Shown here piece by piece: positions 19,024 to 51,272 of a stretch of DNA of 64,000 bases. The notes beneath the pieces are model-generated. The model made no database searches. It saw nothing but the letters and a program-made list of their open reading frames with translations, and had not been told where the DNA came from. A program made the translations under genes and the position numbers. How positions within the stretch are numbered: the stretch's first letter is position 1; each line of letters starts with the position of its first letter. The stretch is taken from NCBI RefSeq assembly GCF_037914945.1, contig NZ_CP149788.1:310001-374000 (forward strand), written 5' to 3'. This DNA comes from Haloterrigena sp. KLK7. Its GTDB lineage: Archaea; Halobacteriota; Halobacteria; Halobacteriales; Natrialbaceae.

Positions 19024-20166
19024 TCAGTCACGTACTTCGTCGATACTGTCGGAGACGTCCTTCATCTTAGTATCCGAATACGCTTCGTGTGTTGTCTCGA
19101 TCGATTGGTGGCGGAGAGCTTCTTGCGCCTTTTCGGACAAGCCACTCGCGTACAGATCACGACCGAGCGCTCGTCGTGCGCCATGTAATGTGAGATAGTC
19201 GTAATCGCCGTCCGGTTCGATACCCGCCTCTTCCGTGAGGCGTTTCATCAACCGCCGAACTCCCTCTTTGGAGATCGACGGCGGTGGGACCTCATGCTCA
19301 CGGTGTAGTCGGTCAAGGACCTCAGTTTTCCCCACGCCACCCCTACCCTCGAGTGCTGCAGAAACCGTCTCCTCACCGATCGATTCGACGAGTACCTCGC
19401 GTTTCGACTGATAGTGGCCGGTCGGGAAAACAGGCCACTCCTCGGTCGGTGGATCAAGGAGTCCGCGCCATCGCTCGAGGACATCATGAACGCTCTCGGG
19501 GAACGGTGCAGTTTCATAGTCTCGTGACTTCCCATAGACCTCGATCGACCGCTCTTCGAAGTCGACATCTGACCAGCGGAGACCATCACGTTTCTCGTCC
19601 TTTGGATCCGAGAACAGTTCCGCTCCACGCGCCCCCGTTCCATCGAGCATGACGACGATCGCTCGGTCGCGGAACGCAGTCTTCCGATCGACGCGGATGG
19701 TTCCTTCGAGCGCCATGTCGACGCGCTTCGTGACGTAGTTGATGAGTTGCTCGCGCTCGTCTTCCGACCAGTACTGCGTTTTCCGCTTCCCATCGTCTTC
19801 GGGGAGCGGATCCATCGCCTCGGTTGTGTCCGCTGGGTTCGTCTCGAGGAGTTGGTCTCGAACGCACCAGGACAGAAAAGCACGGACGTATGCGAAGTAC
19901 GTCTGTGCCGTCGACGCCGAGATCTCCTCGTCGATCTTGGTTCGGTCGTATAGGTCCTCGCTGTATCGCCGAATGTGCGCCGGCTCGAGATCTCTAATGT
20001 CCTCGATGCTGAGTTCGTCTCGACAGAACTCGGCGAACCCCATCAGCGGCGAGCGCATCGTCGTCCGTGACCCTTCAGCTTGGATCTTGTACGTGAGGTA
20101 GCGTTCGACCGCATCTTGGACGGTCTTCTCCTGGGAGTGAGCCCGTTTCTCGCTGGGAGTAGACAT
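19024..20166 (-). CDS. XerC/D-type tyrosine recombinase (integrase), 380 aa
   Basis: The protein has an N-terminal SAM-like core-binding domain (about 15-115) and a catalytic domain with the full set of residues: R180 in LDGTGARGAEL, H328-x-x-R331 in LTLHGARRALG, H353 in ALRHQSIETT and the nucleophile Y363 in HEAYSDT. It is therefore probably active in site-specific recombination of an integrated element. It is convergent with the broken small gene at 18706. Two further partial copies occur at 2539-2674 and 32902-33399, showing that this integrase, or the DNA around it, has been duplicated and rearranged. No tRNA gene or clear attachment repeat is visible near either end. Confidence 0.9.
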   Translation of the reverse strand: MSTPSEKRAHSQEKTVQDAVERYLTYKIQAEGSRTTMRSPLMGFAEFCRDELSIEDIRDLEPAHIRRYSEDLYDRTKIDEEISASTAQTYFAYVRAFLSWCVRDQLLETNPADTTEAMDPLPEDDGKRKTQYWSEDEREQLINYVTKRVDMALEGTIRVDRKTAFRDRAIVVMLDGTGARGAELFSDPKDEKRDGLRWSDVDFEERSIEVYGKSRDYETAPFPESVHDVLERWRGLLDPPTEEWPVFPTGHYQSKREVLVESIGEETVSAALEGRGGVGKTEVLDRLHREHEVPPPSISKEGVRRLMKRLTEEAGIEPDGDYDYLTLHGARRALGRDLYASGLSEKAQEALRHQSIETTHEAYSDTKMKDVSDSIDEVRD

Positions 20167-23200: not shown

Positions 23201-23420
23201 TCGAAGGACAATCCAGCCTCCAGACCTGTAGTTCCGGATTTCGCGAGTTCACTCGCCACTCAAAGATACCTTTTGAGTCTTCTGTGCATCACAACCCCTT
23301 ACAGACTACTCCCAGTGAGGCCAGTGTATATATCTGGAGGGGTGGTCCGTTTTCTAATGTAGTATTCTAATCTGCTAAACTTCGGGTATATTTTATAAGA
23401 GCTGCACAAAAAATTTGACG
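23201..23420. other. Spacer before the regulator at 23421
   Basis: No gene is seen. The last 70 bp are AT-rich with a TATA-like TATTTTATAAGAG about 25 nt before the ATG at 23421, a likely promoter. Confidence 0.5.
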
Positions 23421-23792
23421 ATGGCAATACCCAGTTGGATCTGGCCTGGTAATCAGTATGGAGATAAAGAGACCCATCAGTCTCCTTCTTTTGAAGGCTC
23501 AGAAATCGAGCACGCAACCAACGTATTCGAGGTTCTATCGAATACTACCCGATTGGAAATTCTCGTCGCACTTCATGAACAATCCGAATCACTCTCTTAC
23601 ACAGGGCTTCGAGAATCGATATCAGTTGATGATAAGGGGAAATTCAATTATCACCTCCGTAAACTAAAACCCTTCGTTTGTACCCAAGATGGAGAATACA
23701 CGCTGACGAATCGTGGTCAAACATTCATACAGAGGATCGTATCTGAAGATGTAGTCCTTAACCACGAAGAACTAGCAGTTGAGGAGAAATAA
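23421..23792 (+). CDS. ArsR-like winged-helix transcription regulator, 123 aa
   Basis: The DNA-binding domain is clear: HATNVFEVLSNTTRLEILVA LHEQ, then LSYTGLRESISVDDKGKFNY HLRKLKPFVCTQDGEYTLTN RG. This is the haloarchaeal ArsR-type winged helix (HTH_20/DUF7347-like) with a NYHLxKL recognition helix. No metal-binding cysteine pair is visible, so it is not a typical metal sensor. It precedes azlCD by 90 bp on the same strand and may control it. The ATG at 23421 is used, with a TATA box at the right distance. Confidence 0.8.
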   Translation: MAIPSWIWPGNQYGDKETHQSPSFEGSEIEHATNVFEVLSNTTRLEILVALHEQSESLSYTGLRESISVDDKGKFNYHLRKLKPFVCTQDGEYTLTNRGQTFIQRIVSEDVVLNHEELAVEEK

Positions 23793-23883
23793 ATTTCTCC
23801 GAACTTTTAGATAGGCCCGTACCTAACATGCAACTATGCTAGTTTCAACTAAATGCAAGTGGTGTGAATCATGGAGGGAATAG

Positions 23884-24621
23884 ATGAGCACTGGATCTGC
23901 TGATTCAGCACACCAATCAGAGGAACCGGAAGGTCCTACTGTGGAATTTTCACTTAGTGGTGTGCGAGATGGCTACATTGAATGTGTGCCGATCGCCCTC
24001 GGCGTGGCTGGATATGGTATCGTCTTTGGAGTCCTCTCCCGTCAAGCCGGATTAAGTGTTGCAGAAGCAGCATTTATGAGCGCAACCGTTCTTGCAGGAG
24101 CAGCTCAGTTAATCGCAATCAAGCTATGGGAAACACCAATTCCAATACTTACTGTTATTGGCACGACGTTTATCGTTAATTTACGTTACGTGCTGATGGG
24201 TGCAGCGTTACGTCCCTGGTTCAGCCAGCTTTCTCCGTTGAAAGCGTATGGAAGCGTCTTCTTCACGGCAGACGAGAATTGGGCACTTACTATGGGGAAG
24301 CTCAAATCGGGGAGCCATCAGGGTGCGTATCTTCTCGGAAGCGGGCTCGCAATCTGGTCGTTTTGGATCGTTGCAACGGTTCTCGGTGCGATAGCTGGCG
24401 GTGTGATAGGAGAGCCAGCCCAGTATGGACTTGATTTCGTTCTTACAGCGGTCTTTCTTGCGATTGCTGTCGGGCTTTGGGAGGGGAAGTCAAGTTTTCT
24501 GCCTTGGATAACTGCCTTCAGTATCGCTGTTCTCGGTGCGCATTTTCTGCCTGGGCGTTGGTACATTCTCTTTGGAGGCGTGGCCGGTAGTCTCGTTGAG
24601 GTGATTCGCTTTGATGAGTAG
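23884..24621 (+). CDS. azlC: AzlC-family branched-chain amino-acid exporter, large subunit
   Basis: The 245-aa protein is a polytopic membrane protein with the AzlC signature near the N-terminus (VRDGYIECVPIALGVAGYGI VFGVLSRQAGLS) followed by AAFMSATVLAGAAQLIAI and the NLRYVLMGAALRPW segment. AzlC pairs with AzlD to export branched-chain or related amino acids. The azlD gene follows with an 8-bp overlap, so the pair is intact and complete. Substrate is not visible from sequence. The regulator at 23421 is the likely controller. Confidence 0.9.
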   Translation: MSTGSADSAHQSEEPEGPTVEFSLSGVRDGYIECVPIALGVAGYGIVFGVLSRQAGLSVAEAAFMSATVLAGAAQLIAIKLWETPIPILTVIGTTFIVNLRYVLMGAALRPWFSQLSPLKAYGSVFFTADENWALTMGKLKSGSHQGAYLLGSGLAIWSFWIVATVLGAIAGGVIGEPAQYGLDFVLTAVFLAIAVGLWEGKSSFLPWITAFSIAVLGAHFLPGRWYILFGGVAGSLVEVIRFDE

Positions 24622-24925
24622 CGTCCAATTTGATCCGTTAGTTGTTGCTGTCATCATCGGGATGAGTGCAGCTACCTACGTGACAAAGGCTGGCGGACTC
24701 TGGCTTCTGGGTCATATTAATGTTTCAGACCGGACTGAAGCTGGACTTGAGGTGTTACCGGGTGCGATTATTATCTCAATTCTTGGCCCTGAACTGACTA
24801 GTGCTGGTCCTGCGGAATGGAGTGCTGCTGCCGTCGTGCTATTAGTGATGTGGCGAACGGAGAACGTGCTTGTTGCACTCGTTTGTGGGGTTGCGGCCGT
24901 TCTCCTGTTTAGAACTATCTCATAA
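24614..24925 (+). CDS. azlD: AzlD-family small subunit of the amino-acid exporter
   Basis: The 103-aa protein has three to four membrane spans and the AzlD pattern: AVIIGMSAATYVTKAGGLWL at the start, LEVLPGAIIISILGPEL in the middle and VLVALVCGVAAVLLFR at the end. The ATG at 24614 overlaps the azlC stop by 8 nt, indicating translational coupling. It forms the exporter together with AzlC. Confidence 0.88.
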   Translation: MSSVQFDPLVVAVIIGMSAATYVTKAGGLWLLGHINVSDRTEAGLEVLPGAIIISILGPELTSAGPAEWSAAAVVLLVMWRTENVLVALVCGVAAVLLFRTIS

Positions 24926-25090
24926 GCCCTCCAAAAATCCCATCGTTAAGACCAGCAGTAAAATGAGAGCAAAAAAGCAGCCAAGATTTGATGAGTAGAG
25001 CTGATGAAGGCAACTAGAAGATATAAACATATTATAACCTAGTTTTGAATCAATAAACTAAAGTCATAGAAGATAACTATTAGATATGAA

Positions 25091-26212
25091 ATGCCCAAAA
25101 TAACCGAAATCGAAGCGATACCAGTTCGGCTAGACATATGTCCCCTCTCAGAATCACTCGGCATCGCACCCTACGTGACAACGTACACTGAGTTCTACGA
25201 CATGGAGCGAGTCCTCATTCGACTCGACACCGATAGCGATATCACCGGGTGGGGTGAAATGCGCTCGACCCTCTCGACTGACTCTACAAAGGCGATCATC
25301 GAGACTGATATTGCAGACAAACTCATCGATGAACCCGTTTCGGCCGTTGAGTTACTTCCCGAGCGATTCGACTCGTTCCAATACTTCGACATTGATCCCT
25401 TCCTCGGTGGCGTCGAGATGGCAATGTGGGACGCGTGGGGTCAGTACCTCGAACAACCCCTCTACAAGCTCCTTGGTGGAAAGGTCCGCGAGAAGGTCGA
25501 TGTCTCGTTTTGCCTTGGCGTACTTGAACCGGCGGAGTCTCGCGAACACGCCCGTATAGCCCTCGAACATGGGTTCGACGTACTCAAGACCAAAGCAGGC
25601 CGCGACTGGCGACAGGACATCGAACGCATCGTGGCAATGCACGATGAGGTCGACGGCCAACTAGAGTTCCGACTTGACCCTAATGAGGGCTGGACCACCG
25701 AGGAGGCCGTCAGGGTCGCTGCCTCACTCGAAGACGAGGGAATTTACCTCCAGTACCTCGAACAGCCGATGCGTATCGACAACTTCGGGTCATTCAAGCG
25801 CCTACGTGAGCGACTCCAGACACCTATCGCTGCCAACGAGGATATGTATTTCCGACACAATCTGCTCGAGCTCATCAAGCGAGACGCCATTGACGCGGGC
25901 GTTATCGATATGGTTCCCGCGGGTGGATTGCAGGCCGCTAAGCGACTTGCAGGCATCGCCGACGATGCTGGAATCTCTCTGTCCCACCACTGTGCGTTTG
26001 ATCTTGGCATAAAGTCCGCAGCGCTGGCTCATCTCGTCGCCACTACACCCGCAATTAACCTGCCACCGGACAGTGTCTACTACGCTTGGGATGAGCACAT
26101 TATCGAAGAACCCTTCGATTTATCCGACGGGACACTACCAATACCTGAGGCGCCTGGCCTCGGTATAACCGTCGATGAATCCAACGTCGAAAAGTACCGA
26201 ATCGATCGATAG
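25091..26212 (+). CDS. Enolase-superfamily enzyme (mandelate racemase/muconate lactonizing group), 373 aa
   Basis: The N-terminal capping domain (1-125) and the TIM barrel are complete. The strand-2 base motif is VLKTKAG (K166-x-K168). Metal ligands are D196 (FRLDPNEGW), E223 (YLEQP) and E250 or D251 (AANEDMY). After strand 7 there is LSHHCAFDLGIKSAALAHL (H299/H300), like the His-containing motif of glucarate-dehydratase and mandelate-racemase relatives. The second lysine of true muconate cycloisomerases (strand 6, usually xIxK) is absent: here VIDMVPAGG. The protein therefore abstracts an alpha proton of a carboxylate, but the reaction (dehydration, epimerisation or isomerisation) is open. 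A TATA-like ATATAAACATATTATAA lies upstream. It begins the cluster that continues with a methyltransferase. Confidence 0.85.
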   Translation: MPKITEIEAIPVRLDICPLSESLGIAPYVTTYTEFYDMERVLIRLDTDSDITGWGEMRSTLSTDSTKAIIETDIADKLIDEPVSAVELLPERFDSFQYFDIDPFLGGVEMAMWDAWGQYLEQPLYKLLGGKVREKVDVSFCLGVLEPAESREHARIALEHGFDVLKTKAGRDWRQDIERIVAMHDEVDGQLEFRLDPNEGWTTEEAVRVAASLEDEGIYLQYLEQPMRIDNFGSFKRLRERLQTPIAANEDMYFRHNLLELIKRDAIDAGVIDMVPAGGLQAAKRLAGIADDAGISLSHHCAFDLGIKSAALAHLVATTPAINLPPDSVYYAWDEHIIEEPFDLSDGTLPIPEAPGLGITVDESNVEKYRIDR

Positions 26213-26277
26213 CTCTGGACTAATTTCTAATAATCTTTATCCGAAAGATTAAACTAATCTACTGACAATTAAATCCC

Positions 26278-27024
26278 ATGGATAACGATAGTCCATACTC
26301 GGACTGCTTCTATAATTTCGAGCGTGAGATAGACGAAGAGGAGTGCATCAAGTTCGTTACGTCATTGCTTGATGTTGAGCCTGACCGTGTTCGAAGGCTG
26401 TACAGAGAGATTCGAGGCGATGAGACATTCCACGACATTATTGAGTCTGGGTTAGCTGAGACTAGCGTTAGACCCGACGAACTTGGACCGAACTGGCGGG
26501 ACGTGCTCTACGTTCTCGTCCGTTTCCAAGCGCCTGATACTGTGGTTGAAACTGGCGTCTTCGACGGACTGAGTTCAGCGTATTTGCTTCGAGCACTCGA
26601 CGTAAACGGAGGAGGAACACTGCACTCTATCGATATTAAGGACCCCGAAATTCTGCCGAGCGACATTGAAGATCCTACTCCAGGTTGGACGGTTCCCGAT
26701 GACTTACAATCGTACTGGGACCTGAGAATTGGCGACGCCCGTGAAATTCTACCCGAAATCGCAGCTGAGACCACAATAGATCTATTCCTCCATGACTCCA
26801 ACCACGATGCTGACCACATGGCATTTGAGTTTGATGCTGCCGCCAAAGGAATGGAAGCCAACGCGATACTCCTTGCAGACAACGTTGAGTACAACGATGC
26901 GTTCGCGAACTTCGCCGAGGATAACCTCCGAAACGTCTCTAAGCTCACTAATGCGAAGAAGTCACTCCAGCGCGACGGCGGTATCGTCCAGAATGATAAG
27001 CTGGGTGCTGGGTTAATCAGGTGA
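26278..27024 (+). CDS. Class I SAM-dependent methyltransferase (Methyltransf_24 type), 248 aa
   Basis: The SAM-binding loop is VVETGVFDGLSSAYLLRAL, followed by the acidic strand-2 end LHSIDIKD and the motif DLFLHDSNHDADHMAFEFDA typical of Methyltransf_24 enzymes and relatives such as CmcI-like and catechol-type methyltransferases. An N-terminal ~75-residue helical extension precedes the domain. It lies 65 bp after the enolase-superfamily gene on the same strand and overlaps the GNAT gene tail to tail by 12 bp. O-methylation of a cluster metabolite is likely but the acceptor cannot be named. Confidence 0.82.
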   Translation: MDNDSPYSDCFYNFEREIDEEECIKFVTSLLDVEPDRVRRLYREIRGDETFHDIIESGLAETSVRPDELGPNWRDVLYVLVRFQAPDTVVETGVFDGLSSAYLLRALDVNGGGTLHSIDIKDPEILPSDIEDPTPGWTVPDDLQSYWDLRIGDAREILPEIAAETTIDLFLHDSNHDADHMAFEFDAAAKGMEANAILLADNVEYNDAFANFAEDNLRNVSKLTNAKKSLQRDGGIVQNDKLGAGLIR

Positions 27025-27600
27025 GTCTCCCCAATCCCCGGTAGTCGAAACCTCCTGACACTCTACTGTTGAGGAGTCCCATTCGTGTCTTAGAAAGCCA
27101 TATCGGTGGCGGTGCCAATACTTACCGTCCACGTATCGACTTTCCCGGAGTACGCCCTCGTGCTTGAACCCAATTTTTTCGAGGACTCGACGCGAGGAAT
27201 TATTGAACTCTCGCACATCGGCCCGAACCTTATGGAGTCGTAACTGGTCGAATGCGTACTGAAGGAGTAACTGGATAGCTTCGGTTGCATGGCCCTGTCC
27301 CTGCTTCTCAGGATCAACCCAGTAACTGATAGCTGCCGTGCCGTGCGTGTAACTCACCTCATGGATAGAGATATACCCGACGCGAGAGTCTGAGGTGGCA
27401 ATAACAAACTGGTAATCACGTTTCTCTGTGTGGTTGTCACGTAACTGCTTAGTGTTGGTTGGGCCGTCACCGAGCATCGCTCGTCGAATCCGAGAGTCGT
27501 TGATATTGTTCCGTAAAAAGTCGAAATCGCCCTCCTCTACAGTCTTTAGTCGGACTTTCTCACCCTCAATAAACGTAGACCCTGGGATATTCTCAGACAT
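27013..27600 (-). CDS. GNAT acetyltransferase (RimJ/RimL type), 195 aa
   Basis: The GNAT fold is visible from VRLKTVEEGDFDFLRNNIND through the acetyl-CoA loop DPEKQGQGHATEAIQLLLQY (Q/RxxGxG/A) to the late RRVLEKIGFKHEGVLRESRY segment characteristic of ribosomal-protein-alanine-acetyltransferase relatives. Such enzymes acetylate small amines or protein N-termini. It is the last gene of the four-gene minus-strand operon that begins with the amidohydrolase, and its start overlaps the stop of the 131-aa gene by one base. A tailoring or resistance role within the cluster is inferred. Confidence 0.85.
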   Translation of the reverse strand: MSENIPGSTFIEGEKVRLKTVEEGDFDFLRNNINDSRIRRAMLGDGPTNTKQLRDNHTEKRDYQFVIATSDSRVGYISIHEVSYTHGTAAISYWVDPEKQGQGHATEAIQLLLQYAFDQLRLHKVRADVREFNNSSRRVLEKIGFKHEGVLRESRYVDGKYWHRHRYGFLRHEWDSSTVECQEVSTTGDWGDSPD

Positions 27601-27995
27601 TACTCTTCAAGTGCCTCTGTAACTTTGTCGACGAACTCGTCAGCTTCAATTTCGAATACTGTGTAGCCGTCTGGACTCCGGTGTCGGCCAATGTCGGTCA
27701 TCTTTTCGCCGTCGATTTGGACTTCCCAGTCGTCCCGATACGAGACGTCTCGGCCGACGAACCGGATGGAAACTCCGAGTTTCGTCTCTAGTTTCTTAAC
27801 GACGGCGCGCTTGAGCGTTCCGTCAGCGAACCGCGGTGGTCGGTACGCTCGGAGGTTGTAAGCCTCAAACTCCTGAACTGCATCCGTCCACCAATCAGGA
27901 AGAGATGCTACTTCAATCTCATCGTAGGGGTCGTCATCTTCTCCGGGATCTCGGTCTGCAATAGCCTCAACGGCGCTGGATGTGTCCTGTGACAT
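27600..27995 (-). CDS. Unknown protein of the amidohydrolase-Rieske operon, 131 aa
   Basis: After a short acidic start the protein reads LPDWWTDAVQEFEAYNLRAY RPPRFADG, then LKRAVVKKLETKLGVSIRFV and DWEVQIDGEKMTDIGRHRSP, with a C-terminal helix (DEFVDKVTEALEE). It is an alpha/beta protein without cysteines or obvious catalytic pattern; no family is recognised. Tight spacing (7 bp after the Rieske gene, 1-bp overlap with GNAT) makes a role in the same pathway very likely, perhaps as a small subunit or a chaperone. Confidence 0.75.
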   Translation of the reverse strand: MSQDTSSAVEAIADRDPGEDDDPYDEIEVASLPDWWTDAVQEFEAYNLRAYRPPRFADGTLKRAVVKKLETKLGVSIRFVGRDVSYRDDWEVQIDGEKMTDIGRHRSPDGYTVFEIEADEFVDKVTEALEE

Positions 27996-28002
27996 TCTAC
28001 AA

Positions 28003-28365
28003 TTAGAGGATCACGTAGAGGTCACCGCCCTCCTCAACAACCTCGTAGGTAGGGACTCGATACTCGTCGGATCGAGCGAGGTTATAGCCTGACTTAATAT
28101 CAAACTCCCAGCCGTGCCAAGGGCAGCAGACGAATTCACCATCACGCTCGTAGCGGAGTTCTCCATCATCATCTTCAACGAGTTCTCCGGTTAGTCGCCC
28201 CTCACAGGCAGGACCACCTTGATGGGTACAGTAATTGAGGAGACCGTAGTAGTCTCCGTCAAGGTTGAATACCGCTATCTCGCGCTCCCTGATGTCCACG
28301 ATAACGTGTTCGCCATCGTTGAGGTCGTCTGCAGTTGTAACAAAGTGTTTTTGTTTCCCACTCAT
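28003..28365 (-). CDS. Rieske [2Fe-2S] ferredoxin, 120 aa
   Basis: The cluster-binding motifs are complete: C46-T-H48 in LNYCTHQGGPACEGRL and C81-P-W-H84 in FVCCPWHGWEFDIKSG. The protein is a single-domain ferredoxin of the type that feeds electrons to Rieske oxygenases, or a small stand-alone Rieske protein. No oxygenase or reductase gene is present in the cluster, which is unusual. Its start overlaps the amidohydrolase stop by four bases (ATGA), so the two are made together. Confidence 0.9.
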   Translation of the reverse strand: MSGKQKHFVTTADDLNDGEHVIVDIREREIAVFNLDGDYYGLLNYCTHQGGPACEGRLTGELVEDDDGELRYERDGEFVCCPWHGWEFDIKSGYNLARSDEYRVPTYEVVEEGGDLYVIL

Positions 28366-29474
28366 AGGTCGAATACATTTGCAGCAGTCTGGCCGTAGAT
28401 ATTCTGTATCTCATCGGCGTTGAACTCGGTGCGGAGTGAACTCAGCAGTGCATCAGTGTAGTCAAAGTCGTAGTGGGGATAGTCGGTTGAGAACATGAGG
28501 TTCTCGGCACCGCCGAACATCCGAATAGTGTGACAGAGGTATTCCGGATCATCGATCCCTTCAGTCGGTTGGCTGGTGAAAAAGAACTGGTCGCGGATGT
28601 AGTCGCTTGGGCGCTTTTCCAGCAAGGGCGCGTCGTTCTGCTTTTTGCCATACTCGTTGTCGTACCGCCGCATGAAGTACGGAATCCATCCAATTCCAGA
28701 CTCCTGAATGACGAAATCAAGGGCAGGGAACCGGACCGGAACGCCGTTCGTGAGCATGGTTGATAGGTGCCACATCTGTTCAGCGGAGTGGTAAGGAACG
28801 TGGACCTCGATATAGCGTTTCGTGCCGCGCCACTGGATAGGGTAGTTACCAACGATGCCAGTCGCAGCATTATGAATCATTACTGGGAGTCCGGCGTCCT
28901 CGGCAGCTTCGTAGATAGGGAAATATTGCTTACGGCCTAACGGAGGGTGGACACCACCGCCAGGAATCATAACCGCCTTTATTTGAGATTCACTAGCTAG
29001 CCGGTCGATTTCCTCGGCTGATTTCTCGGGCTTCTGGGGTGTGACAACCATCGAACCGTGATAGCCTTCATCAAGAATGGTATCAAGTAACCAATTATTG
29101 TAGGCTGTCATGAATCCTGCCGCGAGTTCGTCATGGTGGACTAACCCGAGGCGGAGATTCAGGCCAGGCGTGAGGATGGCGTCGTCAAGATTGAGTAGTT
29201 CCATCGCGCGCTCAACGTCTTCGGGACTCCGAACGTCGTCGGTCTCGGCTCGACCGGTATCAGTCGGAGTGAGGTGGCCTGCGGAAGGGTACAACTGGCT
29301 CAGGTACCCGCCCTCTACCTGTCCTCGTTTTTCCTGATTGTTAACGTTAAGAACCTTGTTAAACGGTTCTTCAAGGTATGGCAGGATGTCATCCTGCTGT
29401 TCCGTCAGGTGAAGATCGGTATCTACGACTGTGAGCTCATCTACTGAGGAGACCGCTTGGTTTTTCTCCTTCAT
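28362..29474 (-). CDS. Amidohydrolase-2 family (ACMSD-type) metal-dependent hydrolase or decarboxylase, 370 aa
   Basis: The TIM-barrel metal site can be traced: D20-x-H22 (VVDTDLHL), H201 (PVMIHNAATG), a conserved E258 in the IQESGIGWIPYFMRRYD signature, and D331 in MFSTDYPHYDFD. This is the layout of the 2-amino-3-carboxymuconate-semialdehyde decarboxylase group, whose members decarboxylate or hydrolyse aromatic and unsaturated carboxylates. It is the first gene of a four-gene operon (hydrolase, Rieske ferredoxin, unknown, GNAT). Upstream is a ~100-bp very AT-rich promoter region. A catabolic or biosynthetic role on an aromatic acid is inferred. Confidence 0.88.
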   Translation of the reverse strand: MKEKNQAVSSVDELTVVDTDLHLTEQQDDILPYLEEPFNKVLNVNNQEKRGQVEGGYLSQLYPSAGHLTPTDTGRAETDDVRSPEDVERAMELLNLDDAILTPGLNLRLGLVHHDELAAGFMTAYNNWLLDTILDEGYHGSMVVTPQKPEKSAEEIDRLASESQIKAVMIPGGGVHPPLGRKQYFPIYEAAEDAGLPVMIHNAATGIVGNYPIQWRGTKRYIEVHVPYHSAEQMWHLSTMLTNGVPVRFPALDFVIQESGIGWIPYFMRRYDNEYGKKQNDAPLLEKRPSDYIRDQFFFTSQPTEGIDDPEYLCHTIRMFGGAENLMFSTDYPHYDFDYTDALLSSLRTEFNADEIQNIYGQTAANVFDL

Positions 29475-29949
29475 ATTTCTTCCTACATAGTAATCATAAA
29501 TAAATTTAACTCATTAGCTATAACTTGAATATAAAAGTATATAATATATAAATTGTATTGGGATATATTATATGACTAGTTGATAGAAACCGCCGTCCCA
29601 TCACGACGAATCTGAACTCATAGAGTGTCCCAATATCTCTAAATAATATGCCCCCGACTATACTGTTACGTGGGTTCGACAACCGTCTACTGTCTACCCC
29701 TATTTTGAGTCTCTAGCGAAGCAGCTCTTCATACGAATCGTGGCATCCGGAGCAACGAAGGTAGTCGATACTTGTCGTCATGGAAATAGGCAACCACTCG
29801 GCTAGCGGAAGACCAATGACAGCCGTTTCGTCGAACTAATCTCGTCTCCTCTATTCAAACCGAATGGAGTTGAGATTTCATCGTAAGATCGACTTGTGAG
29901 TTCTTGCCCGAACCTCGACGGTTGCAATCATACGTTGATAATTAGCTGC
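29475..29949. other. AT-rich promoter region then gene-free DNA
   Basis: The first ~110 bp (to 29590) are extremely AT-rich with several TATA-like stretches and must hold the promoter of the amidohydrolase operon. The rest has no accepted gene. A 22-codon minus-strand frame at 29714-29782 (YLRCSGCHDSYEEL) looks like the first zinc knuckle of a larger lost protein. Confidence 0.5.
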
Positions 29950-30806: not shown

Positions 30807-30827
30807 ATGTATACATCATGCATACAT
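30807..30827. promoter_or_regulatory. Near-perfect 21-bp palindrome directly before vapB
   Basis: The sequence runs from ATGTATAC at its left to GCATACAT at its right; only the centre base and one symmetric pair (positions 7 and 15) depart from dyad symmetry. It ends at the base before the GTG start of the antitoxin gene. VapB-type antitoxins repress their own operon by binding such palindromes, so this is the likely operator. Confidence 0.65.
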
Positions 30828-31025
30828 GTGAGCACATCCATCCGCGTTTCAGACGAGACGAAAGAAAAACTCGATCGCCTCAAGCGCGATGACGAGAGTT
30901 TCGACGAGTTGCTAGCGCGATTGGCAAACGAAGAGGAACCGATCACTATCGGTGCGTGGGATTCGGACACAGCGGATAATGCCCGTGATGCCGTCGAGCG
31001 CTCTCGAGAGAGCTTCGGGCAATGA
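30828..31025 (+). CDS. vapB: VapB-type antitoxin (ribbon-helix-helix like), 65 aa
   Basis: The GTG at 30828 is preferred over the ATG at 30807, which lies inside the operator palindrome. The product starts STSIRVSDETKEKLDRLKRD DESFDELLARLANEE, the usual haloarchaeal VapB pattern (a short DNA-binding strand and two helices), followed by a toxin-wrapping tail (NARDAVERSRESFGQ). It overlaps vapC by four bases (ATGA). It would neutralise VapC and repress the operon. Confidence 0.85.
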   Translation: MSTSIRVSDETKEKLDRLKRDDESFDELLARLANEEEPITIGAWDSDTADNARDAVERSRESFGQ

Positions 31026-31417
31026 CGTTTCTCGACGCGTCGGTTATCATCGACATGCTTGAGGGAGTCGATGAAACCGTCGAGTACGTCGAATCGCAGG
31101 ACGAGCCCTATCTCACGTCGTCGATTTGCGTCTACGAAGTTCTGGCTGGGACGCTTGGACAGGGAGCAACCGATGTCAACGCGGAACGACAGCGGTTCAG
31201 TGGTGTCCGTGCCCTCGAGTTCAACGAGAATCTCGCGCTCGAAGCCGCTCGGCTCCAAGACGAACTCCTCGCAGCAGGTGAACGGATGGCCGTTCGGGAT
31301 CTCATGATTGCGGCTACCGCTCGTTCGACCGGTGATCACCTCGTCGTCGCTGACGCTGATTTTCAGACGGCCGTACTTGAGCCCAAAATGCGAGTGACGA
31401 ATCTCTGCGACGACTAA
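31022..31417 (+). CDS. vapC: VapC-type PIN-domain ribonuclease toxin, 131 aa
   Basis: All acidic residues of a PIN nuclease are present: D5 (MTFLDASVII), E39 (ICVYEVLAG), D93 (AVRDLMIAATA) and D111/D113 (VVADADFQTA). VapC toxins are Mg-dependent endoribonucleases that usually cut tRNA or rRNA. The start overlaps vapB. The pair looks intact and active, a typical stability module of plasmids and islands. Confidence 0.9.
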   Translation: MTFLDASVIIDMLEGVDETVEYVESQDEPYLTSSICVYEVLAGTLGQGATDVNAERQRFSGVRALEFNENLALEAARLQDELLAAGERMAVRDLMIAATARSTGDHLVVADADFQTAVLEPKMRVTNLCDD

Positions 31418-32217: not shown

Positions 32218-32901
32218 ATCATACTACTAGCTGCTGGAAGGCAAATAAATTTGGATTTGGTTGTAAAGGATTGACAGAAAGTAGCGCGTAGTGTTTTACG
32301 GACGGTCAAGACAGATAACTATCGAAATCGGAGAGGAAGCTATTGCCTGACAGCCACTTCTTTTCGTACGTCCATCAGAGTGTGAAAACGTCAATAATTA
32401 CCAGTACTTGGAGCATCAAGATAGGTGGCGTAATACTGTTGTCGGCACTGGAGTGTTCTAGGCCTAATTCAGCGAGAGAATTCCGTCCGAAAGCCGAGCG
32501 GAGCGAGGTATCGGCAGATAACTGGCCGCAACGAATGTCGAATAGAGCCCTGTACGAGACGCGCTCGTGATCGAGTGTCGTTCGCCGAACAGTTCCGTTC
32601 GGAGAACTTGCTCGCCAACGATTCCAACAGATCGGTAGCCGTGTCGAGGCCGCAAGTGACAGGGTGTGAAGAGCCGATTCCGAGTCTGTTAGAATCGTGA
32701 CTGGGTTGATTAACCCTTGCGCCGAACATATCCACTGTCGCGTACCTCTCCCACGCGACAGAGCGATCCCATCTCCCCACCCGCCCTTATCGTCATTCAC
32801 CGTGGGCCCGCCCCGGCCCGCTGTGACTTTTCACTTCGCGAATTCGGTACAGTCGCCCGCCCCGAGCGGGTCGTCGTCGCCTCACGAACCGACTGTCACA
32901 G
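32218..32901. other. Gene-free stretch between uspA-like gene and integrase fragment
   Basis: Nearly 700 bp without an acceptable gene. Minus-strand frames of up to 141 codons have shifting composition, no domain and no promoter. The right boundary is the abrupt start of integrase homology at 32902. Confidence 0.4.
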
Positions 32902-33399
32902 ATCGCTCGAGGACATCATGAACGCTCTCGGGAAACGGTGCGGTTTCGTAGTCTCGTGACTTCCCATAGACCTCGATCGACCGCTCTTCGAAATCGACGT
33001 CAGACCAGCGGAGGCCATCACGTTTCTCGTCTTTCGGATCTGAGAACAGTTCCGCTCCACGCGCACCCGTTCCGTCGAGCATGACGACGATCGCTCTATC
33101 GCGGAACGCAGTCTCTCGATCGACCCGGATCGTTCCTTCGAGCGCCATGTCGACGCGCTTGGTGACGTAGTTGATGAGCTGCTCGCGATCGTCATCTGAC
33201 CAGTACTGCGTTTTGCGCTTCCCGTCGTCCTCAGGGAGCGGATCCATCGCCTCGGTCGTGTCCGCTGGGTTCGTCTCGAGGAGTTGGTCTCGAACACACC
33301 AGGACAGGAAAGCACGAACGTACGCGAAGTACATCTGTGCCGTCGACGCTGAGATCTCCTCGTCGATCTTGGTTCGGTCGTATAGGTCCTCGCTGTATC
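32902..33399 (-). pseudogene. Internal fragment of the tyrosine integrase
   Basis: About 165 codons correspond to residues 68-232 of the integrase at 19024-20166 with only a few changes (for example SDDDREQ for SEDEREQ, DRETAF for DRKTAF). The catalytic R180 region (LDGTGARGAELF) is included, but both the N-terminal part and the part with HxxR, His and Tyr are missing. Homology starts and stops abruptly at both ends. It is a gene fragment copied or left behind by recombination. Confidence 0.9.
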
Positions 33400-46384: not shown

Positions 46385-47845
46385 TTACTCGTCGGATGTG
46401 CCGTCGGATCCGTCGCCGTAGTCGATGTTGACGGTTTTGAGCTGGGTATAGTGATCGATTGCCTGCATTCCCTTCTCGCGGCCGAGCCCGCTCTTCTTGT
46501 AGCCGCCGAAGGGTGTCTGCGGGTACGAGCCGGAGTACTGATTGACCATTACGCTACCGGCCTCGATTTCGTTCGCAACGCGGTGGCCACGTCCGAGATC
46601 GTTCGTCCAGACCGTCGCGTAGAGGCCAAACTCAGTGTCGTTGGCCCGCCGAATCGCCTCCCGTTCGTCCGAAAACTCGTAGAGGGCGATGACCGGACCG
46701 AATACCTCCTCACAAGAGATTGGTGCGTCGTCGTCGGCCCCTTCGATTACCGTCGGCTCGTAGAAGTACCCTTCACGGTCAGGTACCGCTCCACCGGTCA
46801 GTGCGCTCGCACCGTTCTCGAGGGCGTCGTCGACGTACCCTCGTACCTTTTCGAGACCGTCGTCGGAGACGAGGGGGCCGAGATCGGGATCTTCAATTCC
46901 CGGCCCGATCGAAATCGATTCGACGGCTTCGCGGAGTGCTTCGCGGAATTCGTCATAGCAGCCCTGATGGACGAAGATCCGCGTCGTCGCGAAACAGACC
47001 TGCCCACTCATCAGCGTCAGCGCCTTCATCGCCCCCTCGACGGCGTCTTCGAGATTAGCATCCTCGAAGACGACTGCCGGACTCTTGCCACCGAGCTCGA
47101 GGGCCGTCGGAACCACGTTGTCGATTGCGGCCTTACCGACGATCTGGCCGGTCGCCACCGAACCAGTGAACGTGATCTCGTCGATTCGCGGATCGGTAGT
47201 GAGCGCGGCACCGGTCGTCTCGCCGTCGCCGGTGACCACGTTGAGAACGCCGTCGGGGATTCCCGCTTCGGTGGCGAGTTCGCCGATCTCCAACAGCCCA
47301 AGCGGGGCTTCCGGTGCAGGTTTGACGACGACTGCGTTTCCGGCTGCGAGCGCAGGTCCAATCCCACGACAGCAAAGTAGGATCGGAGCGTTCCACGGAA
47401 TGACCTGGGCACTTACCCCGACTGGTTCCTTTCGTGTGAACGCCTGTTGGTCGCCGGGGACAGGAATTGTCTCTCCTTGAATTTTCGTCGTCATGCCCGC
47501 GTAGTACTCGATGTAGTCGGCAGCGCTACCGACGAGTCCTACCGACTGCCCGATCGGCCGACCGGTCTCCAGCGTGACGGTCTTGCTGATCTCGTCGACA
47601 CGTTCCCGAATCGTCTCGGCGAACGCCGACAGGTGCTGGCCCCGTTCGGCTGGGTCCATCGCCGCCCACTCTGGTTGAGCACGTTTTGCGGACGTGATAG
47701 CATCGTCGACGCCTCCTTCGCTGGCCTCGGCGACGGTCGCAATCGGTGAGCCGGTCGCCGGATTCTCGACGTCGAATGTCTCGGCACCGTCTCGAAATTT
47801 CCCGTCGATAAACATTCCATAGTGATCGGATTGCTCCTCTTGCAT
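46385..47845 (-). CDS. Aldehyde dehydrogenase (ALDH superfamily), 486 aa
   Basis: All active-site landmarks are present: N152 in VIPWNAP, K175 in VVVKPAPEAP, the FTGSVATG nucleotide loop, the general base E250 in TALELGGKSP and the catalytic C284 in MSGQVCFATTR. The C-terminus keeps the PFGGYKKSGLGRE motif. It oxidises an aldehyde to the acid (or acyl) with NAD(P). It is transcribed with the cupin gene upstream, away from the three NMT1-type genes, and probably belongs to the same pathway. Substrate unknown. Confidence 0.92.
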   Translation of the reverse strand: MQEEQSDHYGMFIDGKFRDGAETFDVENPATGSPIATVAEASEGGVDDAITSAKRAQPEWAAMDPAERGQHLSAFAETIRERVDEISKTVTLETGRPIGQSVGLVGSAADYIEYYAGMTTKIQGETIPVPGDQQAFTRKEPVGVSAQVIPWNAPILLCCRGIGPALAAGNAVVVKPAPEAPLGLLEIGELATEAGIPDGVLNVVTGDGETTGAALTTDPRIDEITFTGSVATGQIVGKAAIDNVVPTALELGGKSPAVVFEDANLEDAVEGAMKALTLMSGQVCFATTRIFVHQGCYDEFREALREAVESISIGPGIEDPDLGPLVSDDGLEKVRGYVDDALENGASALTGGAVPDREGYFYEPTVIEGADDDAPISCEEVFGPVIALYEFSDEREAIRRANDTEFGLYATVWTNDLGRGHRVANEIEAGSVMVNQYSGSYPQTPFGGYKKSGLGREKGMQAIDHYTQLKTVNIDYGDGSDGTSDE

Positions 47846-48416: not shown

Positions 48417-49313
48417 ATGCCAGACAATGACACACTTCGCGTGTTTCACCTCCCCTTCTCGTTCATGTTGCCGCAGCGAGTCGCGGCCGAGCGGGGGTAC
48501 TTCGCGGAGCACGGACTCGATGTCGAACTGATCGAGCGCGATCGGCGACGCGTCGACTGGAAGTACGTCCCTGGGGACGGAACCCTGACCGGAGACCAAG
48601 ACGTGGATCTGTACCCGGTCTGCAAGTGGGAGAGCCTCCGCCGGACGTGGTCGCTCGAGGACGGTCGGATCGTCGCTCACGGCGCGTTCGCAGACCTTCC
48701 GTACACGTTTCACACGCGACCGGAGACGGATATCGACGGACCGGCCGACCTGGCAAACGTCCCCGTCGCGGTCAATCGGCGGACCGGACAGGAGTACACG
48801 GCGATCCGGGCGCTTGAGGAGCACCTCGAGCCGGACGAAATCGAACTCGAACACCACGGAATGCCGACCAACCGGCTCCGAGCCCTCCGGGACGGTACGG
48901 TCGAGGCCGTGACGCTGCTCGATCCCCACAGCGCGCTCGCGGATGGGCTCGGACTACAGCGAATCTTCGAATTCGAAAATCACGTCGGAATCGTTGGAAC
49001 CGACGGCCTCGACGGCACGGCGTTCGAGGCGTTCATGGATGCCTACGGCCGCGCCGTCGAGGAGATCAACGAGGAGCCGTCCGCGTTCCGTCAGCAGTAC
49101 CTCGAGATGCTCGAGAAGGACCGCGAGGTCGCACCCGACCTCTTCGAGGACGTCGACGTGTTGGCGATCCGCGATTCGGTGACCGTTCCGGAGTACGAAG
49201 TTCCCGAACCCGTCGACTCCGGGGACCTCGAGGGGCACCTCGACTGGATGAAAGAGCGAGAGCTGATCGACGAGGACGCGGAGATCGACACGATCGTCGC
49301 ACCCGTCCGCTAG
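48417..49313 (+). CDS. NMT1/THI5-like binding-fold protein, first of three (298 aa)
   Basis: The sequence LRVFHLPFSFMLPQRVAAER GYFAEHGLDVELIERD is the standard start of NMT1/SsuA-type two-lobe proteins (...xxGYFxxxGLDVE...), followed by lobe-2 segments such as NVPVAVNRRTGQEYTAIRAL and GTVEAVTLLDPHSAL. There is no signal peptide or lipobox, so unlike normal substrate-binding proteins it is cytosolic. Relatives include THI5/NMT1 pyrimidine synthases and 4,5-dihydroxyphthalate-decarboxylase-like enzymes, so an enzymatic or ligand-channelling role is possible. The leaderless start lies right after the inverted repeat. Stop and next start are 4 bp apart. Confidence 0.8.
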   Translation: MPDNDTLRVFHLPFSFMLPQRVAAERGYFAEHGLDVELIERDRRRVDWKYVPGDGTLTGDQDVDLYPVCKWESLRRTWSLEDGRIVAHGAFADLPYTFHTRPETDIDGPADLANVPVAVNRRTGQEYTAIRALEEHLEPDEIELEHHGMPTNRLRALRDGTVEAVTLLDPHSALADGLGLQRIFEFENHVGIVGTDGLDGTAFEAFMDAYGRAVEEINEEPSAFRQQYLEMLEKDREVAPDLFEDVDVLAIRDSVTVPEYEVPEPVDSGDLEGHLDWMKERELIDEDAEIDTIVAPVR

Positions 49314-49317
49314 AGCC

Positions 49318-50304
49318 ATGGATATCGACACTCAGCAGTCGGCACTAGACGAACTGCACGCCGATCCCGGGGAATTGCCCGTAATGCGCGCCCGGTTCGA
49401 GCACAATGGCAGCCCGCGGTACATGCTGTACACGATCAAGCGGTTCGGCTTCGACCGCGACCACGGCTTCCACCTCGACGTGGAACTCGTTTCGGACGAA
49501 CTCGAGGGCGGAATCGAGACGGTCGAGGCAAAGCTCCACGAGGGTGACGCGGATCTGATCGACATCGACTTCATCTCGGCGGCTCGCGAGCGGGTCGACG
49601 GCGCGCCGATCGTCGCGTTTCACCCCTACGGGCGGACCGTCGGCGGTCTCGTCGTTCCCGAGGCGTCGTCGATCGAGGGGCTGTCCGACCTCCGCGACTG
49701 CCGCGTCGGCGTCGTCCGACGGCTGGACAAGAACTGGATCCTCACGCGGGCCGCCTGTCTCGAGTATCACGGCTTCGACCCCGAGGCAGAGGCGACATCG
49801 GTCGAGTCCGGATCGAAGGTCGAACTCACGCGGATGCTGCGCGACGGCGACGTCGACGCTGCACTGCAGTTCTGGCAGATCGTTCCCGAGATCGTCGAGA
49901 CCGGGCCGTACCGCGAGGTGATTCCGATGGCGGATCTGGTCCAGCGGCTCTCCGGCGCCGATCAAACGCTGCCGATCTCGACGTTCCTCACGAGCGAGTC
50001 GTACCTCTCCGAGACTCCCGAGGCCGTTCGCGGCTTCAAGCGAGCGTACGCCGACGCGGTCGAGCGGCTCCGGACCGACGACGAATTGTGGGACGAACTC
50101 GGCGAGCGGATGATGTATGAGGACGATCCCGCGGTCGTCCGCGACGGATGGCGAGAGATGGTCGTCGCCGACTGGGACGCGGAGACGACTGCGGCAATGG
50201 AGCAACTGTTCGACCACCTCCTCGAGGTCGCGGGTCCGGACGCGCTCGGTGTCGACCGCATTCCGGATGACCTGTTCCAACTGGAGGTGCCCCAGCCACA
50301 ATGA
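49318..50304 (+). CDS. NMT1-like binding-fold protein, second of three (328 aa)
   Basis: The fold is recognisable in RYMLYTIKRFGFDRDHGFHL DVELVSDELEGGIETVEAKL, DADLIDIDFISAARERVDGA PIVAFHPYGRTVGGLVV and LRDCRVGVVRRLDKNWILTR A, with the usual hinge and lobe 2. No export signal is present. It is different from both neighbours (not a recent tandem copy). It overlaps the third gene by four bases (ATGA), so synthesis of the proteins is coupled, suggesting a complex. Confidence 0.78.
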   Translation: MDIDTQQSALDELHADPGELPVMRARFEHNGSPRYMLYTIKRFGFDRDHGFHLDVELVSDELEGGIETVEAKLHEGDADLIDIDFISAARERVDGAPIVAFHPYGRTVGGLVVPEASSIEGLSDLRDCRVGVVRRLDKNWILTRAACLEYHGFDPEAEATSVESGSKVELTRMLRDGDVDAALQFWQIVPEIVETGPYREVIPMADLVQRLSGADQTLPISTFLTSESYLSETPEAVRGFKRAYADAVERLRTDDELWDELGERMMYEDDPAVVRDGWREMVVADWDAETTAAMEQLFDHLLEVAGPDALGVDRIPDDLFQLEVPQPQ

Positions 50305-51272
50305 CAACCACGACCATCGACTTTCAGCTCAACTGGGAGCCAAACGGGTTCCAGGCACCGTACTTCTTCGCCCGCGAACGGGGGTTCTACGACGAGGAGG
50401 GGCTCGACGTACGCTTCGTCGAGGGACACGGCTCGCCGTTCGCCGCGGAGCAGGCCGCGAAGGGACGCGCGGAGTTCGCGCTGGCGGGTGCGAGCGCCGT
50501 CCTCTCGGTCCAGAGCCGCGGCCTCGAGCCGCTCGCCGTCGCCGCCGTCACGGGGAAGACGCCGGCGGCGATCTACACGCTGCAGGACGTCTTCGGCGAG
50601 CCCCTCGAGCGTCCGGGTCAACTCGTCGGCCGGACGATCGCCCCCTCGGCGACGAAGACGCGCATCCTGACGGCCCAACTGCTCGAGAACGAGGGGATCC
50701 GGGACGATGTCGAGTTGCTCGAGGTCGACGACCACACCCATCACCGCGTCCAGCACAAGGTGCTCGACGGCGCGGTCGACGCCGCCGTGGGTGTCGTTAC
50801 GAACGGCTACGAACTCGAACGTGAACACGACCGGACGGCCGACGAACTCCCGATCGGAAACCACCTCGATGTCTACGGGATGACGATCGTGAGCGATCCC
50901 GACTTCGCTCGTGCCGAGCCGGAGACGGTCCGCGCGTTCCTGCGCGCGACGGCCCGCGGCTGGGAAGCGGCGACGGCCGACCCGGAGGAGGCGGTCGACC
51001 GCCTCGTCGAGCGCAACGCCACGCTCGAGCGGAACCGGCCCGTCGAGGAGCGGAAGTTCCGGACCGCCGCGACTGAACTCCAGTTTACCGATCGGGTCCG
51101 CCGGTCCGGCTGGGGGCTCCACGACGGCGACCGGTGGCGGACGCTCGGAGAGACCCTCGCCGAGACGGATCTGCTCGAGGGAGAGATCGATCCGGACGCG
51201 GTCTGGACCAATGAGTTCGTCGACACCGACGCGGACGTCGTCCGAAACTACGTGGATCGAGTGGGTGCCTGA
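50301..51272 (+). CDS. NMT1/THI5-like binding-fold protein, third of three (323 aa)
   Basis: This is the most typical family member: TIDFQLNWEPNGFQAPYFFA RERGFYDEEGLDVRFVEGHG SPFAAEQAAKGRAEFALAGA SAVLSVQSRGLEPLAVAAV. The W-x-PN-x-QAPYF...GFYxxEGLDV pattern is shared by THI5-like proteins and ABC-type pyrimidine or sulfonate receptors. There is no N-terminal hydrophobic signal, no lipobox, and no permease or ATPase gene near. The cysteine motif of yeast THI5 is absent, so the HMP-synthase reaction is not expected. It is followed after 2 bp by the VOC gene. Confidence 0.85.
   Translation: MTTTTIDFQLNWEPNGFQAPYFFARERGFYDEEGLDVRFVEGHGSPFAAEQAAKGRAEFALAGASAVLSVQSRGLEPLAVAAVTGKTPAAIYTLQDVFGEPLERPGQLVGRTIAPSATKTRILTAQLLENEGIRDDVELLEVDDHTHHRVQHKVLDGAVDAAVGVVTNGYELEREHDRTADELPIGNHLDVYGMTIVSDPDFARAEPETVRAFLRATARGWEAATADPEEAVDRLVERNATLERNRPVEERKFRTAATELQFTDRVRRSGWGLHDGDRWRTLGETLAETDLLEGEIDPDAVWTNEFVDTDADVVRNYVDRVGA

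Follow-up and report, generated by a model that had tools for sequence, protein, structure and literature searches.

A predicted amidohydrolase-related dinuclear oxygenase, its Rieske ferredoxin and a linked 131-residue protein in a conserved nine-gene cassette of Haloterrigena sp. KLK7

Gene content and integrity of the cassette

The window analysed here, a stretch of 64,000 nucleotides of Haloterrigena sp. KLK7 (positions 310,001 to 374,000 of contig NZ_CP149788.1, which is 397 kb long, the genome measuring 4.64 Mb), carries a cassette of nine genes whose core consists of a predicted amidohydrolase-related dinuclear oxygenase (ARO), a Rieske ferredoxin and a 131-residue protein of a new family. 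The genes for an enolase, a methyltransferase, a GNAT acetyltransferase and AzlCD are cassette-specific accessories. An earlier note on this DNA had described six closely packed genes at 25091-29474 with AzlCD upstream. All six open reading frames lie at those positions and belong to the families named, and both azl genes were found. The six genes are thus real, but the unit is larger, extending from a regulator gene at 23415 to just beyond 29474. The features are as follows:

23415..23792, + strand: winged-helix (DUF7347) regulator at the start of the cassette (PF24038; same place in three relatives)
23884..24621, + strand: AzlC-like amino-acid transporter (PF03591; cassette-conserved)
24611..24925, + strand: AzlD-like membrane protein (PF05437; cassette-conserved)
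25091..26212, + strand: enolase-superfamily enzyme, MR_MLE (PF02746/PF13378)
26278..27024, + strand: class I methyltransferase, putatively of the cation-dependent O-methyltransferase type (PF13578)
27013..27600, - strand: GNAT N-acetyltransferase, 195 aa (PF13302; cassette-conserved)
27600..27995, - strand: 131-aa protein, new family (no Pfam, NCBIfam, PHROG or PDB match; linked to AROs; structure modelled)
28003..28365, - strand: Rieske [2Fe-2S] ferredoxin, 120 aa (PF00355; C46-x-H48 ... C81-x2-H84)
28362..29474, - strand: predicted ARO, 370 aa (PF04909, Amidohydro_2; ligand mapping and fold match)
23306..29619: whole nine-gene cassette (DNA homology to the relative G066, 90.7% identical over 6.3 kb; flanks non-homologous)

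On the minus strand, the genes for the ARO, the Rieske ferredoxin, the 131-aa protein and the GNAT make up a compact operon, in which successive genes are joined by a 4-nt overlap, a 7-nt gap and a 1-nt overlap, respectively. The plus-strand genes from the regulator to the methyltransferase (23415-27024) converge on this operon, and the methyltransferase and GNAT genes overlap by 12 nt at their stops.

The analysis is computational throughout, and the relatives used for comparison (G handles) are a sampled set, in which close relatives inflate significance values. In addition to G066, homologous DNA was found in Natrinema sp. SYSU A 869 (23287-29509, 85.4% identity) and in Natrinema altunense AJ2 (G050; 23498-29512, 80.5% identity). 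The nine genes are collinear in three Natrinema-group genomes with flanks unmatched at both ends, and a diverged, reordered version of the cassette occurs in Natronobiforma (G085, locus L076). The ratio of nonsynonymous to synonymous substitution rates, estimated against two relatives, was 0.04-0.31, indicating purifying selection on all nine genes. Because a homologous unit with non-matching flanks is combined with purifying selection, we regard the cassette as a unit that moves together and not as a chance gathering of genes. Random assortment in relatives was looked for and seen neither for the nine-gene cassette nor for the ARO/Rieske/131-aa core.

The predicted oxygenase and its Rieske ferredoxin

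The class of AROs was established by Liu et al. (PMC10811679) and Powell et al. (PMC10401708). These Mn/Fe or diiron hydroxylases have been recognised only recently, and few of their substrates are known. The 370-residue protein matches PF04909 with a Pfam E value of 8.1e-29, and its nearest PDB relatives by sequence are all AROs, namely 8SM7 (E 4.5e-53), 8SM8, 8SM6 (SfbO), 8SM9 and AibH2. The six metal ligands of AibH2 (D25, H27, H211, E265, D337 and H340) align with the identical residues D20, H22, H201, E258, D331 and H334, and the second-sphere D342 of AibH2 corresponds to an identical D336. This last residue is an acidic position present only in binuclear members and absent from mononuclear ones (PMC7782822); its replacement by Ala reduces activity (PMC10401708). 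All seven residues are invariant in 33/33 haloarchaeal homologues of our alignment. Four haloarchaeal ARO-like proteins without a 131-aa partner (L101, L103, L104 and L105) keep the six ligands and carry Thr or Ala at the position of D336.

The AlphaFold2 (AF2) model of the protein (predicted local distance difference test, pLDDT, 77; predicted template modelling score, pTM, 0.82) led to the same class. Its top ten structural matches were ARO-system entries with Z scores of 36-39.5 (8SM7 being the best, 39.5), followed at a lower level by PtmU3 (Z 32.3) and by decarboxylases, including ACMSD (Z <=30.4). The earlier note had proposed an ACMSD-type hydrolase or decarboxylase, and had accordingly seen no oxygenase for the ferredoxin. 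Both statements are overturned, since the neighbouring amidohydrolase is itself the candidate oxygenase. An ordinary ACMSD-type pathway accompanied by an unrelated ferredoxin would agree with membership of the common PF04909 superfamily; however, the protein has a DxH motif instead of HxH and a complete dinuclear ligand set, it is nearer to AROs than to any decarboxylase in both sequence and fold, and its adjacency to a Rieske gene is conserved. We therefore rejected the ACMSD assignment and consider such a pathway highly improbable.

The Rieske ferredoxin contains the ligand pairs C46/H48 and C81/H84 (C-x-H ... C-x2-H), a pattern kept in 48/48 Rieske proteins gathered around ARO/131-aa loci, and a Rieske protein with this pattern adjoins almost every haloarchaeal ARO examined. 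An adjoining small Rieske protein is also the guilt-by-association criterion that has been used for AROs (PMC10811679). The ferredoxin is presumed to be the electron donor to the ARO. A Rieske non-heme (di)oxygenase was considered and rejected, because the 120-aa protein is a Rieske domain only and the cassette holds no alpha-subunit gene.

Based on the dinuclear ligand set, the ranking of AROs first in sequence and fold comparisons, and the adjacent Rieske gene, the "amidohydrolase" is very probably an O2-using ARO hydroxylase fed by the neighbouring ferredoxin. The pair is a fresh member of an already known class, and the ARO tree of Powell et al. (PMC10401708) already takes in haloarchaea. 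The linked 131-aa family also picks out a group of archaeal hydroxylases that appears to be concealed under the annotation "amidohydrolase family protein."

Among the known systems, the 2-aminoisobutyrate hydroxylase AibH1H2-AibG-AibF of Rhodococcus wratislaviensis (PMC7782822 and PMC10401708) resembles the Haloterrigena cassette in having a PF04909 hydroxylase with the same six ligands and second-sphere Asp, a neighbouring Rieske ferredoxin and an amino-acid transporter gene in the cluster. The identity is only about 25%, and the cassette has neither an AibH1-like subunit nor an AibF-like reductase; instead, it has the 131-aa partner, the enolase, the methyltransferase and the GNAT. A whole-genome search with the ARO gave one match, so that no AibH1-like second subunit was found. 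The closest sequence and structure relatives are SfbO and the other AROs of entries 8SM6-8SM9 (PMC10811679; 33% identity and Z 39.5 for 8SM7), which also have an adjacent Rieske gene but are bacterial and have no described 131-aa partner. The sulfate-pocket residues N67, R232, R235 and W341 of SfbO are not conserved in the Haloterrigena ARO, and for this reason a sulfonate substrate was not inferred.

Linkage and possible roles of the 131-residue protein

The 131-aa protein matched nothing in Pfam, NCBIfam or PHROG, nor in the PDB by profile search, and Pfam searches with the protein alone and with 29 family members gave only isolated chance-level matches. A profile search detected the family in 54/391 Halobacteria genomes and in no member outside Halobacteria in a broader sample of the phylum. 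When 72,556 plasmids were searched by tblastn, the 131-aa query hit 14 records, all haloarchaeal, and the ARO query hit 186, mostly bacterial. A scan of genome contigs yielded 11 haloarchaeal loci and one Pirellulaceae match (L120), which was discarded as an artefact lying out of frame within a ParA-like gene.

The linkage of the family to AROs was counted at 58 loci in 51 genomes, with fragmentary matches dropped and an ARO threshold of E 1e-30. An ARO was present in 49/51 genomes with the 131-aa family versus 47/340 others (Fisher p 8e-33, not corrected for phylogeny). In the neighbourhood survey that the earlier note had proposed, an ARO lay within 15 kb at 56/58 of the loci, with a median gap of 459 bp. 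The two genes were on the same strand in 29 cases and on opposite strands in 27. Since adjacency is kept despite flipped orientation, this points to a functional tie and not to an inherited operon order. In the ARO tree, the 131-aa-linked enzymes occupy two supported clades (20/24 and 9/11 rows), and other haloarchaeal ARO lineages are without the partner. According to these data, the 131-aa protein quite probably works together with the ARO in one capacity or another.

At further haloarchaeal loci, the ARO/Rieske/131-aa core is surrounded by catabolic genes and IclR regulators, and it probably serves several substrates. At one of the two unlinked loci (G042, L096, 11254-11670), a truncated ARO-like fragment is found beside the 131-aa gene, the two apparently decaying together. 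A plasmid of Halobaculum halophilum (L066, 4273-28309) shows an apparent local expansion of AROs, of which at least three lie within 25 kb together with two Rieske genes and a single 131-aa gene.

The invariant features of the family are W35-W36, D58, W90, a P-x-R-F-x-D motif and R/G motifs. Few acidic residues and no Cys or His are conserved, and because of the latter the protein is probably cofactor-free. The structure prediction suggested in the earlier note gave an AF2 model (pLDDT 83, pTM 0.74) whose N-terminal part is helical and whose core has the order alpha-beta-beta-beta-alpha; fold searches with it (Foldseek, VIA-align) returned weak matches to double-stranded RNA-binding domains (dsRBD; Z about 3, none with E <=0.001), which were not used as an assignment. 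The core topology would suit a cluster-specific nucleic-acid-binding regulator that is no component of the enzyme. However, no Foldseek match reached E 0.001, the 131-aa gene comes after the Rieske gene within the operon, and many loci of the family already have an IclR-like regulator (this family being present in 17/34 surveyed loci). We consider a regulatory role quite improbable.

The occurrence of a small protein gene beside those of a dinuclear hydroxylase and a Rieske ferredoxin recalls toluene 4-monooxygenase, which requires its hydroxylase, its ferredoxin and an effector (T4moH/T4moC/T4moD; PMC4200526). The systems are alike in outline, although the hydroxylase of toluene 4-monooxygenase is a four-helix bundle and the Haloterrigena ARO a TIM barrel, and no homology was detected between T4moD and the 131-aa protein; searches of Pfam and the PDB gave no sequence match to T4moD/MmoB-type effectors. 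Because the 131-aa protein shares with T4moD its small size, its apparent lack of a cofactor and its gene neighbours, a hydroxylase and a ferredoxin of these types, we judge the likeliest single role to be that of a dedicated effector (gating or coupling) protein of haloarchaeal AROs, and put this forward as a tentative proposal.

Several observations weigh against this proposal. The effector role rests on analogy, and no bacterial multicomponent monooxygenase effector appeared in the Foldseek and VIA-align lists for the 131-aa model, in which all matches were weak. Several haloarchaeal AROs and all the bacterial ones inspected are without a 131-aa gene, so that the partner is not universally required; the Natronobiforma cassette likewise has none adjacent, the genome having one near another ARO. 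Finally, no gene for an AibF-like NADH:ferredoxin reductase is present in the Haloterrigena cassette.

The same linkage data would fit a factor for maturation or metal loading, or an adaptor for ferredoxin docking, acting with an otherwise unchanged ARO and Rieske monooxygenase. The selectivity of AROs in Mn/Fe loading (PMC10401708) agrees with a loading factor, whereas the lack of conserved Cys/His and the few conserved acidic residues are unlike typical metallochaperones. This option seems doubtful to us.

If the effector proposal is correct, the haloarchaeal system would be a three-component TIM-barrel monooxygenase that independently reached the hydroxylase/Rieske/effector design of the bacterial diiron multicomponent monooxygenases. 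No effector was reported in the ARO literature searched, and we found no description of the third component or of the nine-gene cassette. The sole paper found on haloarchaeal Rieske and amidohydrolase genes, PMC10401708, colours haloarchaea in its ARO tree and, in its available part, discusses no partner. Published ARO assays used ascorbate as the reductant, and the reported Michaelis constants (KM) are poor (>100 mM for AibH1H2 and 83 mM for SfbO with a surrogate substrate). A linked third component in haloarchaea offers a testable reason why the in vitro activity of AROs may be low.

Tailoring genes, proposed mechanism and surroundings

In alignments, the enolase has the mandelate-racemase-type set of K166 and K168 (KxK), the metal ligands D196/E224/E250, and the Asp-His dyad D273 with H299/H300; with this catalytic set, it is expected to remove a proton from the position alpha to a carboxylate. 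Its neighbourhoods in other genomes are too varied to point to a substrate. The methyltransferase has distant profile matches to PF01596-type O-methyltransferases (e.g. 5LHM, E 7.7e-8), as well as D173 and an Asp-Asn pair in 'ADNVEYND', the pair being kept in all cassette members. From these sequence features we infer a cation-dependent O-methyltransferase type. Close orthologues of it were found only in these cassettes. The GNAT resembles SpeG/RimL types more closely than it does the antimetabolite acetyltransferases that are known.

Together, the enolase, methyltransferase, GNAT and AzlCD suggest a carboxylic acid with an amine group, which would undergo hydroxylation, perhaps O-methylation and N-acetylation, and transport; a substrate resembling an amino acid is plausible, if far from assured. 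The cluster is conserved, and the proposal of the earlier note that its genes convert a carboxylated compound, perhaps one derived from an amino acid, is supported; its statement that the set matches no known pathway also stands, as none was found described in the literature. A full catabolic route is less favoured, since no dehydrogenase, aldolase or CoA enzyme was found inside the cassette. The same lack, together with the presence of AzlCD, GNAT and O-methyltransferase genes and the mobile behaviour of the cassette, would agree with the making or disarming of an amino-acid antimetabolite, which is compatible with the ARO core; the ARO and methyltransferase would build or modify the compound, the GNAT would give self-protection and AzlCD would export it. 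However, the cassette has no peptide- or amino-acid-building enzyme, and the affinities of the GNAT also argue against this scenario, which we regard as rather unlikely.

We propose, with somewhat more confidence than doubt, a three-part monooxygenase combined with a tailoring cassette, in which the effector step is the leading but unproven option. The Rieske ferredoxin would reduce the two-metal site of the TIM-barrel ARO, predicted to be Mn/Fe or Fe2, which would activate O2 and hydroxylate a small molecule at one of its C-H bonds, by inference from AibH1H2, where such chemistry was demonstrated. The 131-aa protein may dock on the hydroxylase as an effector or coupling protein, like T4moD or MmoB in role and not in ancestry. 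The O-methyltransferase could then cap an oxygen of the hydroxylated product, the GNAT could acetylate an amine, and the enolase might catalyse epimerisation or dehydration at the carbon beside the carboxylate. AzlCD would carry the amino-acid-like substrate or product over the membrane, under the winged-helix regulator. The tailoring genes of such a small mobile cassette should help to narrow down the native substrate.

The cassette is bracketed by two copies of a tyrosine recombinase gene 13.4 kb apart, one intact (19024-20166, - strand) and one truncated and 92% identical (32882-33334, - strand), which suggests an integrative island or a recombination scar. A VapB-type antitoxin and PIN-domain toxin pair lies immediately outside it (30807-31417, + strand). 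Further along the window, three NMT1/Thi5-like proteins are encoded in tandem (48417-51272, + strand), with an aldehyde dehydrogenase nearby (46385-47845); they show no evident signal peptide and are possibly cytosolic binding or HMP-synthase-like proteins.

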